From: Fimbriimonadaceae bacterium | GTDB lineage: Bacteria > Armatimonadota > Fimbriimonadia > Fimbriimonadales > Fimbriimonadaceae | DNA: 54,342 bases | Direction of reading: 5' to 3' | NCBI GenBank assembly: GCA_024710805.1 | Contig: JANJUB010000157.1 | Coordinates: 1 to 54,342, forward strand | Shown here: piece by piece, positions 49,005-53,746 of the stretch | How the letters are laid out: each line of letters starts with the position of its first letter | Position numbering within the stretch: the stretch's first letter is position 1 | Notes under the pieces: generated by a model | Database searches by the model: none | What the model was told of the DNA's origin: nothing | The model's input: the letters and a program-made list of their open reading frames with translations, nothing else | Translations under genes and position numbers: made by a program

Positions 49005-52000
49005 TCAACCAACGCAGAATCCGTTTGGACGATCTGGCAGTTTCGCTTGGGTCGGACGATAAGGAAACACCCGGTCAGCGAGGAATGCGACGTGCTCATC
49101 GCGATGCTGGGCGTGGCCGACGATGGTGACAAACGGGCTGCATACGATCGAGTGTCCATCCTGCCGATACACCCGATCGAAGCACGTGACGTTGAGCAAT
49201 CCGGTCTCGTCCTCAAGGTCGAAGAACACGACTCTTTTCCCGCTTGGGGTTGGGGGAAATCGCAGCCTTATCGGATTGCCGACCACGAATGCCGCGGTGC
49301 CATCGGGCAGACGGCGGGCATCAGCGGTCGTAAGCCCGCCCTTCCGCAGGACGCGTTCGCGTTCGTAAGCCATGAGGTGCTGGTCGACGTCAAGCCCCAA
49401 GGTCGCCCGTTGGTAAAGGGCTTTCTCGATGTCCGAGAAGTCGGGCAGATCTTCACGCAGGGTGGGCTCGGCGTAGCTGAGGGGTAGTCCTCCGATCGGA
49501 CGCACTAATCGGGTGTATTCAATGGCATCGGGGATTGCCCACAGCAATGCGCGGCGGTGCTGATGAAGAGAATCGAAAGCTCCGCAAAGGATGAGTTGCT
49601 CGAGCTCATCGCGCTCGGGTTGAATCCGGGCGACAAAGTCGAAGAACGACGTGAACCTGCGCCGCTTGGTCATCGATCCAGTTGCCGTGCGCTCCATCAC
49701 GGCGACCGCGTTGCTCGATCCGGTTGAGACGTCCGGTTGCTCGGGCTCTTGTGGGGTGAGCGAAGCCTCGACGATTCTCATTTTTAACTCTTCGGAGAGA
49801 CCGTCGATCTGGTTCAGCCCCACCCGTAGGCCACCGTTGGGAACCCAAAGCCCTGAGGCAAGAACGTCTTCGACCTGAAACCCAAGCTCGCTTTCATTCA
49901 CGTCCGGGGTCAGGATCTTGACCCCTCGGCTACGAGCCTCATTGACCAAGGTGCAAGGGCCATAGTAGCCCGCAGGTTGGGCATCGAGCAGCGCTGCGAA
50001 GTATTCCGAGGGGTAGTTCTGCTGACAGTAAACGGAGCGGATCGAGACCTCGGCAAACGCAAGCGCGTGCCCTTGTGCAAACCCGTACCCTTTGAACCCT
50101 GCGACAAGATCGATGACCTCATCGGCGACCGGTTCGGAGTAGCTCCGCTCCCGAATCCGCCGTCTCAGATCGTCGCGAATGGCGTCGCCGTATTCCTCCC
50201 TCCGCCGCTTGTGAATCTGTTCTCGCAGGTCTTCGGCTTCACCCGAGGTGCATCCCGCGAAAGTCTGCAGCAGTTGATCGATCTGTTCTTGGAAGACGAC
50301 GATGCCGTAAGTGAGTCCAAGAATTTCTTCCAGGTGGGGGTGAGAGAAGCTGTAGGGCTTACCCCGACGGCGGGCGATCATTTCGTTGAGCTTCACCGCA
50401 CCACCCACTCCTGGCCGGATTCCCGCCTGGACGAGGCTGGCTTCGTGCAGATTGTTGGTGCGGATGCGCTGATGGGCTTGGCGCATCGCGGGCGAGGCGG
50501 ACTGGGGAATGCCAATCAGTTCTCCCGAACGCATCGCTTCATAGGTGTGGGGATCATCAACCGGGACGACGTTAACGTTGAAATCCGGACTGCGAAGGCG
50601 GATGCGCCGCTCGGTGCCCGAAAGCACATCCTGTCCACGGAGACACAGGATGTCGAACTTGTCGAAGTAATGCTTCGCGCTTCGTTTATCCCACTGGATG
50701 ATGCGGATCGGTACGCCGTCGGCCTCGCCTCCGGAGTCCATCACCGGAACCGTCATCGCAAGCGGTTCCTGCGAGATGACCACCCCCGACGAGTGCGCAC
50801 GAATGTTGCGCGGAAGATCCATCATGCGTTCGGCTAGCGTCATGATCCAGTGCAACCGCTCCATCGGGATGTTGCTCTCTCGCAGCTCGGGCCGAGATTC
50901 AATCGCATGGGCAAGACGATCCGGGGCGATGCCGGCATGAATGCGTTTGCTGAGGAAGCCTAATAAAGAGTTCGGCAATCCGAACACTTTGCCGACTTCA
51001 CGGATGATGCCGCGGGTACAGAACGCTCCAATCGCCGAGACCGTTGCAACCCGTTCGTTGCCGTATCTCTTCACCAGATACTGTCGGATATCCTCCCGTC
51101 GGTGCGCTTCAAAGTCAATATCGATGTCGGGACGCTTGCTGCCGTCCTCAGGCAAGAATCGGTCGAAATGAAGTCGGTGGGAGTAGGCATCGATTCTCGA
51201 TAACCCCAGGCAGTAGGCAACCACCGAGTCCACGACTGAGCCTCTTCCGCTGAACAGGATGTCCTGTTCCTCCGCCCACCGGCAGGCATCCCAAATCGTG
51301 AGGAAGTGGCTGGCGAACTTGAGACGCTGAATCCGGTCGATTTCCCGAGCGATCCGCTTGCGGAGAGGATGGGTAATTTTCGGATACCGAATGAACGCCC
51401 CGGCCTCAACGATCTCGGTCAGTGCGTGGTTAGGGTCGTCGTAAAGCGGAGGTAGAGAAGTGCGCCCGGGCAGGACGTCGTCATCGCAACAGTTCGCGAG
51501 ATCGATCGTTGCCTGAATCCACTCCGGATGGTCGGAAAAGAGGTGAATAAGCTCCGCGCTCGTGCGAAGGTGCCGCTCCGCATTGAGCGGCCGCTCCGGA
51601 TGAGTCTCATACGCGGGCTGTCCTGGGAAGCGCAGTGGCTTGCGTCCGATGACCTCTTCGATGCCGCAGAGGGTGTCGATGCACACGATGACGTCCTGCA
51701 CCGGGGCGTGTTCGGGGCGAGCGTGGGTGACCAGCCCACCAGCAATACATCGCACCCCGCGTGAACTCGCCAAATCGGCGAGCCGGCGGTTCAACGAGAT
51801 CTCCCAAGGATGGAACGTCCGCTCGATCTCGACGCGCACCTGATGCTCGCCAAACACACTGACCAGCCGATCGAGGGTCGTTGACGCCTGGTCATCCTTC
51901 CCACGCAACAAGGGCATGACCAGCGGCCCGACATGTCCCCCGGTGAGGCAAAACAGATCCACGGCGTGCTGTTCGAGCAGCGTCCAAGAAGCCATCGGAA

Positions 52001-52592
52001 AGCCGCGTGGTTGGTTCAGATGACAAGCCGTGATGAGTTCTGAGAGGTGTCGGTATCCGCGACGGCTGCGCGCGATCAAGACGATCCGCCCGCCGGTCTC
52101 AAGTTCGATTTCCGCTCCGATCAAGGGTTTGATGCCCGCACGGCGACACGCATGAGCGAACTCGATCGCACCAACCAGCGAGTGTCGGTCGGTGATCGCC
52201 ATCGCCGGGCAGCCGACCATCGCCCCAAAGGCCACCGCTTCCTCGGGCAGCATCGTTCCGCGGCCAAAACTGTATCCCGAGAGCACGTGCAGCGGCACAT
52301 ACGGCTGTGCAACCGTGCGGCGGTTCCAGGTGACCTTCTTTGGTTCGGGGATGCCGTAGGAAAGCCGAACCAGCGCCATCTTCTCCTCTCGTCGTTTCTG
52401 GATGCGCAGGCTCCAGTCCTCGCTGTGGTCGGTGTCCTCGGGCTGTTGTCCCAGAGTAGGCAAGATGAGTGGGCCGAGGTCCGAGATGCTCTCGCGGCGG
52501 ATTCCGCGGGTATCTACGGTGTGCGCGTACTCGCGATAAGGCTCGCCGTTCCACCATTCGCCCAGTTCGCGCCAACGAGCAAGATCGCTCAT
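49005..52592 (-). CDS. dnaE2: Error-prone DNA polymerase DnaE2 with N-terminal extension
   Basis: This 1195-residue C-family polymerase does translesion synthesis with ImuB. After an extension of about 95 residues come the PHP domain (YVPLHVLSGYSFGRG to about 330), the palm with SGRGSVVDSVVAYCLGL and the catalytic Asp pair in PDIDIDFE (about 488-495), KFDILCL with the third Asp, the fingers GIRPGVGG ... HPHLEEILGLTYGIVVFQEQ, and a C-terminal OB domain. The DnaE2 assignment rests on the short fingers, ImuB pairing and lack of a tau-binding tail. Residues 5-35 (ARWRELGEWWNGEPYREYAHTVD) look like the DUF6504 family found beside imuB in other phyla. The start overlaps the imuB stop by 4 bp. Confidence 0.93.
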   Translation of the reverse strand: MSDLARWRELGEWWNGEPYREYAHTVDTRGIRRESISDLGPLILPTLGQQPEDTDHSEDWSLRIQKRREEKMALVRLSYGIPEPKKVTWNRRTVAQPYVPLHVLSGYSFGRGTMLPEEAVAFGAMVGCPAMAITDRHSLVGAIEFAHACRRAGIKPLIGAEIELETGGRIVLIARSRRGYRHLSELITACHLNQPRGFPMASWTLLEQHAVDLFCLTGGHVGPLVMPLLRGKDDQASTTLDRLVSVFGEHQVRVEIERTFHPWEISLNRRLADLASSRGVRCIAGGLVTHARPEHAPVQDVIVCIDTLCGIEEVIGRKPLRFPGQPAYETHPERPLNAERHLRTSAELIHLFSDHPEWIQATIDLANCCDDDVLPGRTSLPPLYDDPNHALTEIVEAGAFIRYPKITHPLRKRIAREIDRIQRLKFASHFLTIWDACRWAEEQDILFSGRGSVVDSVVAYCLGLSRIDAYSHRLHFDRFLPEDGSKRPDIDIDFEAHRREDIRQYLVKRYGNERVATVSAIGAFCTRGIIREVGKVFGLPNSLLGFLSKRIHAGIAPDRLAHAIESRPELRESNIPMERLHWIMTLAERMMDLPRNIRAHSSGVVISQEPLAMTVPVMDSGGEADGVPIRIIQWDKRSAKHYFDKFDILCLRGQDVLSGTERRIRLRSPDFNVNVVPVDDPHTYEAMRSGELIGIPQSASPAMRQAHQRIRTNNLHEASLVQAGIRPGVGGAVKLNEMIARRRGKPYSFSHPHLEEILGLTYGIVVFQEQIDQLLQTFAGCTSGEAEDLREQIHKRRREEYGDAIRDDLRRRIRERSYSEPVADEVIDLVAGFKGYGFAQGHALAFAEVSIRSVYCQQNYPSEYFAALLDAQPAGYYGPCTLVNEARSRGVKILTPDVNESELGFQVEDVLASGLWVPNGGLRVGLNQIDGLSEELKMRIVEASLTPQEPEQPDVSTGSSNAVAVMERTATGSMTKRRRFTSFFDFVARIQPERDELEQLILCGAFDSLHQHRRALLWAIPDAIEYTRLVRPIGGLPLSYAEPTLREDLPDFSDIEKALYQRATLGLDVDQHLMAYERERVLRKGGLTTADARRLPDGTAAFVVGNPIRLRFPPTPSGKRVVFFDLEDETGLLNVTCFDRVYRQDGHSIVCSPFVTIVGHAQHRDEHVAFLADRVFPYRPTQAKLPDRPNGFCVG

Positions 52593-53701
52593 CCTGTCCC
52601 CCCTTGCCAGGCACGCAGCACGTGAACTCGGCGGGGAACTTGGACTTCGGAGGCGCAACAGATCGCGCGATCCCCAAACACGGTCTTCAGCCGATGGATC
52701 GCATCTTCTGCCGCATCTTGGTCGCGAGGGTCGACGATCGAAAACTGCGTGAAGTGGGAGCTTTCTTCCGTGAGCAGCTCAACAACCAGCCCGATCAGGG
52801 GCTCGACGGGGCGGATCTCTCGGATAAGGACGAAGTGAATCTGCGTAGCGGTGCGAAGTGGCTTTGGAGTGACAACCTCGAGCTTCTCACCATTCACCCA
52901 TGCATGGATGATTCTGGAGCGTCGGTCCTGATTCGCCAGCCCACGCGCGAGTTCCATCGCGACTTCCCGCAGCAGCCGTTCCAGCATGGCTTGGTCATCG
53001 ATCCCGTCAGGAATCTCGCGGCATGCGCGCACGGTGGGTGGCCCGTCGTTTGGTCGAAGCTCGTCGCTGAGCTGTCCAATCGCCGCCAAGTGAATCGATC
53101 TGCCCAGCTCGCCGAACTGGTTCTTGAGCGTGTCCAACGATAGAACCTGCACATCGCGGATCGTACGGCATCCGAGGAAGCCGAGCCGGTACGTCAACTC
53201 CGTGGCAAAGGGAAGTGCCCGCACGTGCAGGGGAGCGAGCATCCGTTCGGGTCGAACCACCCAGTCCGCATGGATTCCCCCATGCCTCGCTGCCAACTGA
53301 GCCAGCCACATCGCGCGTCCAATGCCCATCCGATGCGGCTTGGGGATGGCGTCTTGAATCGCGGCAAGCAGGGAATAGGGGTCGGGATGGGCTCCGAGAT
53401 CGAGCGAGATGGCGTTAGGCGCGTGGACCTCGATGCGTTCGGTGAAGCGTCGTAAGGGCTGGGTCCATGCTTGCCGCGCTGCTTCCCATTGCAACAAGGG
53501 CTCGGTGGCAACAAACGTGGCCCCCTGTGCGAGGGTTTTCGCCTCAACCAGACTGAAACCAACCGCGATACCCATCCCTCTCGCCTGCTCGCACACTTCG
53601 ACAACGCGCTTGCCATCGTGGACGATGACTGCGCCGTCAGGGCGTTTTGGGAGAGAGTCCCGATAGAACCGACTGAGGTGGACATACGCAAAATAGTGCA
53701 T
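52589..53701 (-). CDS. imuB: ImuB-like catalytically inactive Y-family polymerase
   Basis: This 370-residue protein has a Y-family fold: FAYVHLSRF in place of the catalytic D-x-D..F strand, RGMGIAVGFSLVEAKTLA (fingers), and NAISLDLGA where active enzymes have SIDE. Both metal sites are lost, as in ImuB, which serves as an adaptor between DnaE2, the clamp and ImuA/RecA. QFSIVD (319-324), followed by AIHRLKTVFG, sits where ImuB proteins have a clamp-binding QLSLFD-like motif, but it is degenerate. It is the first gene of the imuB-dnaE2 pair; imuA is not in the window. Start ATG 53701 has TATAAT 11 nt upstream. Confidence 0.87.
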   Translation of the reverse strand: MHYFAYVHLSRFYRDSLPKRPDGAVIVHDGKRVVEVCEQARGMGIAVGFSLVEAKTLAQGATFVATEPLLQWEAARQAWTQPLRRFTERIEVHAPNAISLDLGAHPDPYSLLAAIQDAIPKPHRMGIGRAMWLAQLAARHGGIHADWVVRPERMLAPLHVRALPFATELTYRLGFLGCRTIRDVQVLSLDTLKNQFGELGRSIHLAAIGQLSDELRPNDGPPTVRACREIPDGIDDQAMLERLLREVAMELARGLANQDRRSRIIHAWVNGEKLEVVTPKPLRTATQIHFVLIREIRPVEPLIGLVVELLTEESSHFTQFSIVDPRDQDAAEDAIHRLKTVFGDRAICCASEVQVPRRVHVLRAWQGGTG

Positions 53702-53712
53702 ATATGTCTACT

Positions 53713-53746
53713 ATTATAGGCGACATTTACGAGATCTGGACAGATC
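53713..53746 (-). promoter_or_regulatory. imuB promoter with palindromic operator
   Basis: A perfect TATAAT (53713-53718, minus strand) is flanked by ATGTC/GACAT arms (53704-53708 with 53722-53726). The palindrome GATCTG-N2-CAGATC (53733-53746) overlaps the expected -35 position. This is the expected layout for an SOS-type repressor site, but the sequence is not a known LexA box; regulation is inference. Confidence 0.5.

Follow-up and report, generated by a model that had tools for sequence, protein, structure and literature searches.

What is the stretch of about 94 residues that precedes the polymerase in the DnaE2 of this Fimbriimonadaceae bacterium, and what could it do there? The gene lies on contig JANJUB010000157.1 of assembly GCA_024710805.1, analysed over its 54,342 nucleotides (the window). 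Whether these residues belong to the protein, from which domain they derive, and how they relate to mutasomes, the complexes in which DnaE2 works with the Y-family protein ImuB, are taken up in turn.

The dnaE2 frame and the conservation of its extension

DnaE2 is a C-family error-prone polymerase with an N-terminal fusion (Table 1). Its best and nearest NCBIfam match is PRK05672 (595 bits, below the curated 939), and in a tree it stands apart from DnaE1. Pfam places the start of the PHP domain at residue 101 and the PRK05672 model begins at residue 95, so that the length ahead of the polymerase agrees with the roughly 95 residues counted in a first-pass annotation of this DNA. The coordinates given there are likewise correct, the strand being minus. 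Residues 6-21 read RWRELGEWWNGEPYRE.

The extension is real coding sequence. In comparison with a same-genus relative, dN/dS is 0.030/0.635 for residues 1-94 and 0.029/0.581 for the remaining dnaE2, and codon differences within residues 1-71 comprise 16 synonymous and 4 nonsynonymous changes. Every one of 58 compared dnaE2 genes, which come from two families of the source's order, Fimbriimonadales, carries it; a further one is truncated by a contig end. A profile of residues 1-50 finds matches, almost always single, in 73 of 85 Fimbriimonadaceae genomes; full-length matches open the dnaE2 frame, apart from a few on contig ends or in split frames, and one extra weak match in genome G004 resembles noise. 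W13, W14 and E21 are invariant (51/51 sequences), and the stretch from residue 43 to the PHP domain is very variable in length, from a few tens to several hundred residues. Matches of the extension to plasmids by tblastn were chance matches only.

GTDB records that hold the fusion are named Armatimonadetes, Fimbriimonadales, Fimbriimonadaceae, Fimbriimonas, Chthonomonas and Chthonomonadaceae, with one mislabelled. The closest relative (L157, JADZEW010000023.1), with a DnaE2 about 95% identical, was deposited as 'Methanoregulaceae archaeon isolate SJ84'; as a bacterial operon lies in a record labelled archaeon, the record is probably mislabelled or a mixed MAG. In Armatimonadetes bacterium Uphvl-Ar1 (L194, CP021423.1) the extension, in a frame of 281 aa, and the remaining DnaE2 are in different frames, which is a frameshift or sequencing error.

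Table 1. Features of the imuB-dnaE2 region, in positions of the window.
Feature	Position	Strand	Description or basis
dnaE2	49005..52592	minus	1195 aa, ATG 52592, stop 49005; PF07733, PF17657, PF02811, PF14579
PHP domain, residues 101-258	51819..52292	minus	first histidine motif degenerate (PLHVLS)
Linker, residues 43-94	52311..52466	minus	mostly predicted disordered; without DUF6504 match
Conserved linker block EDW.LR.RK.RDEKV..ACG (Fimbriimonadaceae), residues 56-80	52353..52427	minus	holds Met72
DUF6504/ImuB-C core, residues 1-42	52467..52592	minus	HHalign, hmmsearch, AlphaFold
W13-W14 of GxWW motif	52551..52556	minus	invariant 51/51
Shine-Dalgarno-like AAGGGGGG	52598..52605	minus	5 nt ahead of long dnaE2 ATG
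imuB	52589..53701	minus	370 aa, inactive Y-family polymerase (predicted), no C-terminal ImuB-C domain
RecA-NT motif, ImuB residues 329-352	52646..52717	minus	HHalign 95%, E 3.2e-8
Clamp-binding-like motif TQFSIV in ImuB	52733..52750	minus	sequence reading only
Palindromic operator-like element over imuB start (ATAGTAGACATATATGCACTAT)	53693..53714	minus	upstream-region comparison

Kinship of residues 1-42 with DUF6504

Taken alone, residues 1-103 of the window sequence match no Pfam or NCBIfam model, and the check set beforehand, residues 1-95 against Pfam, likewise returns nothing. The Pfam profile of DUF6504, PF20114 (curated cut-off 24.2 bits), leaves the window sequence without a match, reaches 16 bits on one relative, the best tried, and finds nothing in a scan of 41 near relatives. 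Profile-profile comparison gives a different picture. HHalign aligns the extension with dnaE2-adjacent DUF6504 over 40 columns (columns 36-75 of 86) at 97-98% and E-values of 3e-11 to 5e-13, the score of 58.4 standing against a maximum of 19.1 among 150 column-shuffled controls. The WW-type subset of DUF6504 was first chosen by the motif W..G.WW, and the test was therefore repeated on a set chosen by its gene neighbours and with GxWW masked; masking lowers the HHalign score to 32.1 and leaves the register unchanged, GxWW-keeping shuffles reaching at most 25.9. A WW-type profile in hmmsearch matches 58 of 58 extensions, that of the window with E 3.2e-5 and 22.8 bits, where none of 11,658 decoys exceeds 13.9. 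Once GxWW is masked, most individual sequences score no better than noise (median 6.2 bits), and the single-sequence signal thus leans heavily on this motif, which is invariant in 16/16 WW-type DUF6504, a set chosen by it. A profile of all DUF6504 subfamilies is weak and does not match the window extension; the match is confined to the WW-type subfamily that is linked to dnaE2.

AlphaFold predictions, made from independent alignments of which neither included members of the other set, give strand, turn, strand and strand in both proteins over the aligned part. In DnaE2 1-400 strands are predicted at residues 2-9, 19-26 and 32-40 with a WW turn at 13-15 (pLDDT 89-96). A separate DUF6504 is modelled with seven strands, of which 29-42, 53-60 and 65-71, with a turn at 46-48 (W46-W47), correspond in order and spacing; its strands 4-10, 13-15, 21-26 and 75-82 are missing from the extension. 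Judged from these comparisons of sequence, residues 1-42 share ancestry with the central part of DUF6504. About half of the domain is present, with strands 1-3 and the final one lacking, so that the extension amounts to a fused core and falls short of a complete DUF6504: the FxWRGR strands and the closing W..D strand of the full domain of about 85 residues are absent. The likeness first proposed for residues 5-35 is thus borne out by profile-profile comparison, predicted structure and gene position, and is narrowed to the central half of the domain, in residues 1-42. Among candidates tried, linker block 2 was rejected as a part of DUF6504 (HHalign probability 0.2%), and a search of the PDB for relatives of ImuB-C returned nothing beyond weak hits to Nup358 (E 0.0085 or worse), which are taken as chance.

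Beyond the core, linker pLDDT is below 50 at residues 47-52 and 58-94, and a helix at 66-76 is weak in the model. The pTM of the DnaE2 1-400 model is 0.83, while the approximately 306 ordered polymerase residues alone would give 306/400 = 0.77; this arithmetic, which is not a measured interface, gives a hint of the extension lying against the PHP domain. The first PHP histidine motif reads HLHVHS in relatives with a separate DUF6504 and PLHVLS or similar in the fused clade, and on account of this degeneration the PHP site of the fused clade is probably inactive.

Two rival readings set this kinship aside. If translation began at Met72 the extension would lie outside the protein, and an AGGAG 3 nt ahead of that codon would suit such a start; it is given scarcely any credence here, as purifying selection acts on residues 1-71 in the dnaE2 frame, the extension is found in every relative compared, and the long start has its own Shine-Dalgarno-like sequence and a 4-bp overlap with imuB (ATGA). 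Met72 lies inside the conserved RK.RDEKV block, at a site that is Val in most relatives, and for this and the protein-level selection translation from Met72 alone is very unlikely, although, given the AGGAG, a minor short product may arise there. The earlier argument that the overlap favours the long form agrees with the selection on residues 1-71. Convergence on a WREAGEWW motif, with no kinship to DUF6504, would account for the empty single-sequence Pfam scan and for the loss of single-sequence score on masking, but it would leave unexplained the 40-column profile match that keeps its register with GxWW masked, the identical strand order predicted independently, and the same operon position in relatives, and is regarded as highly improbable.

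Operon composition and the places of DUF6504

In the upstream gene, H and S replace the first two catalytic Asp and the SxDE site is degenerate; among 49 ImuB rows, Asp is outside the six commonest residues at the first catalytic site. ImuB is accordingly predicted to be a catalytically inactive Y-family protein. Its RecA-NT motif scores 30.7 in HHalign against at most 12.1 for shuffles, and in relatives the clamp-like Q motif takes the forms QSDLF, QKSLL and QRTLE. With the NF033429 model, the only match to ImuA in the source genome (96% complete) is one below the cut-off, which is RecA, and neither a separate ImuB-C gene nor a full DUF6504 was found in that genome. The canonical ImuA-ImuB-DnaE2 arrangement, with ImuA present and ImuB-C on ImuB, is thus not that of this locus; the extension does stand where DUF6504 is expected, beside a Y-family gene and dnaE2.

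The ImuB proteins of the order share a conserved tail, PRR..vLraWrdatGW, just ahead of the dnaE2 start (52589-52640; in the window, PRRVHVLRAWQGGTG). Although it looked like a second DUF6504 relic, this tail is not claimed as one, since PolY proteins encoded upstream of separate DUF6504 genes share its RR..mL part. In most upstream regions compared, the imuB start codon is overlapped or closely preceded by a palindrome, usually partial, of consensus ATAGTAGAC-N4-GTCTACTAT, a candidate SOS (LexA) operator of the order. Ahead of lexA in the source genome (L251), AGTAGAC and GTCTAC flank a -10-like TATAAT.

Within the phylum, 14 of 16 DUF6504 genes with W..G.WW immediately precede dnaE2 and share its orientation, against 0 of 31 without the motif within the available flanking DNA. 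Close to two non-WW genes (L080, L086) the opposite strand carries a dnaE-like gene. In other Armatimonadota (genomes G096, G093, G248, G221 and others) DUF6504 stands as its own gene between those for PolY and DnaE2, and in some (G141, G142 and relatives) it forms the C-terminus of ImuB. Separate DUF6504 genes upstream of dnaE2 also occur in Bacillota, Actinomycetota and Alicyclobacillus, in a scan that was motif-seeded and DnaE2-filtered, so that this association is partly by selection. The domain had at first been described as stand-alone next to imuB in other phyla; that holds, and the same phylum has stand-alone copies too. In a quick DnaE2 tree (LG+G4) the fused forms group as a single clade (SH-aLRT 100) nested among lineages that show the two other states; the nearest sister of this clade, at support 86, is not firm. 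PF20114 falls just below its cut-off on the C-terminus of alphaproteobacterial ImuB (4.7e-5, 7.9e-5) and matches that of Armatimonadota ImuB at 4.4e-5, and from these profile matches DUF6504 is equated with ImuB-C.

A proposed mutasome and its likeness to known systems

ImuB-C is already part of DnaE2 mutasomes (PMC3765255, PMC6511836, PMC12926913), and published models place it on the DnaE2 PHP domain in the ImuA-ImuB-DnaE2 complex (PMC12926913). The link of DUF6504 to the mutasome is hence not new. The fusion, which the first-pass annotation presented as a Rosetta-stone link, is independent support for it and not the first, because ImuB-C already belongs to the published complex. In the papers searched, neither the name DUF6504 nor a report of a DnaE2/ImuB-C fusion was found, and the main text of PMC12926913 has no such fusion and no Armatimonadota.

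The locus probably encodes a DnaE2-inactive PolY-RecA mutasome without ImuA, in which DnaE2 carries a truncated ImuB-C coupling piece fused at its N-terminus. The homology, the truncation, the gene order and the single fused clade are established, and on them a course of events may be built. An ancestral operon would have held inactive PolY, separate ImuB-C and dnaE2, in this order, and the ImuB-C gene would have merged into dnaE2 in the ancestor of the order's DnaE2. Strands 1-3 and the final strand of the merged domain would then have disappeared, leaving the strand/WW-turn/strand/strand core and a flexible linker. By analogy with the ImuA-ImuB-DnaE2 models, the core would sit on the adjacent PHP domain and give the inactive Y-family subunit a fixed surface to dock on. 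ImuA being missing, that subunit could bring RecA through its RecA-NT motif, and it could bring the sliding clamp through its Q motif. The result would be a three-part mutasome of DnaE2 with its ImuB-C core, inactive PolY and RecA, the coupling subunit being covalent on the polymerase. We infer the PHP contact, the coupling to ImuB and RecA, and the role of the extension in mutagenesis.

A homologous relic that only stabilises or shields the PHP domain, with no coupling to the Y-family subunit or RecA, is a less probable reading that still deserves weight. Only three strands of DUF6504 remain, and with half of the domain missing a kept function is not required; the PHP histidine motif, moreover, is degenerate in the fused clade and kept in relatives with a separate DUF6504. 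Yet a relic would hardly be expected to hold W13, W14 and E21 invariant, to share GxWW with dnaE2-linked DUF6504, or to keep an ImuB with RecA-NT in its operon. More speculative, and rather improbable, is a split-domain lock between polymerase and scaffold, in which the three-strand core would be the minimal DnaE2-binding ImuB-C and a PolY strand (e.g. from the tail vLraWrdatGW) would complete the half-barrel.

The fusion bears on ImuB-C, the least characterised module of DnaE2 mutasomes, for which the PHP domain of DnaE2 has been proposed as partner on the strength of AlphaFold models. That nature has joined the core to DnaE2 beside the PHP domain is independent support for that interface and makes the contact testable, narrowing it to a likely 40 or so residues with an invariant WW. 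Since the domain occurs in three states within a single phylum, as a gene of its own, on ImuB and on DnaE2, the evolutionary route is visible and testable as well.

In composition the locus equals the DnaE2-iPolY-ImuB-C-RecA systems (PMC12926913), except that ImuB-C is here on DnaE2. It shares with the systems of standalone ImuB-C, as in Kyrpidia tusciae (PMC6511836), the homologous core, GxWW, the place between inactive PolY and dnaE2, the lack of ImuA and the RecA-NT on PolY; it differs in having the central three strands only, a linker of about 50 residues to DnaE2 and no separate gene. The ImuA-ImuB-DnaE2 systems of Proteobacteria and Actinobacteria likewise have an inactive Y-family subunit beside DnaE2 and the domain at the same operon place, whereas here the domain is on DnaE2, not ImuB, and no ImuA is found above the cut-off. 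The ImuB-DUF6504 fusions of Armatimonadota (G141, G142; L127, L126) have phylum and operon order in common with it, but carry the domain at the ImuB C-terminus, and their DnaE2 starts at the PHP domain. The Bacteroidetes DnaE1 with an N-terminal DnaQ exonuclease (PMC3919608) also links an accessory subunit to the N-terminus of PHP; there the domain is unrelated and its function is proofreading.
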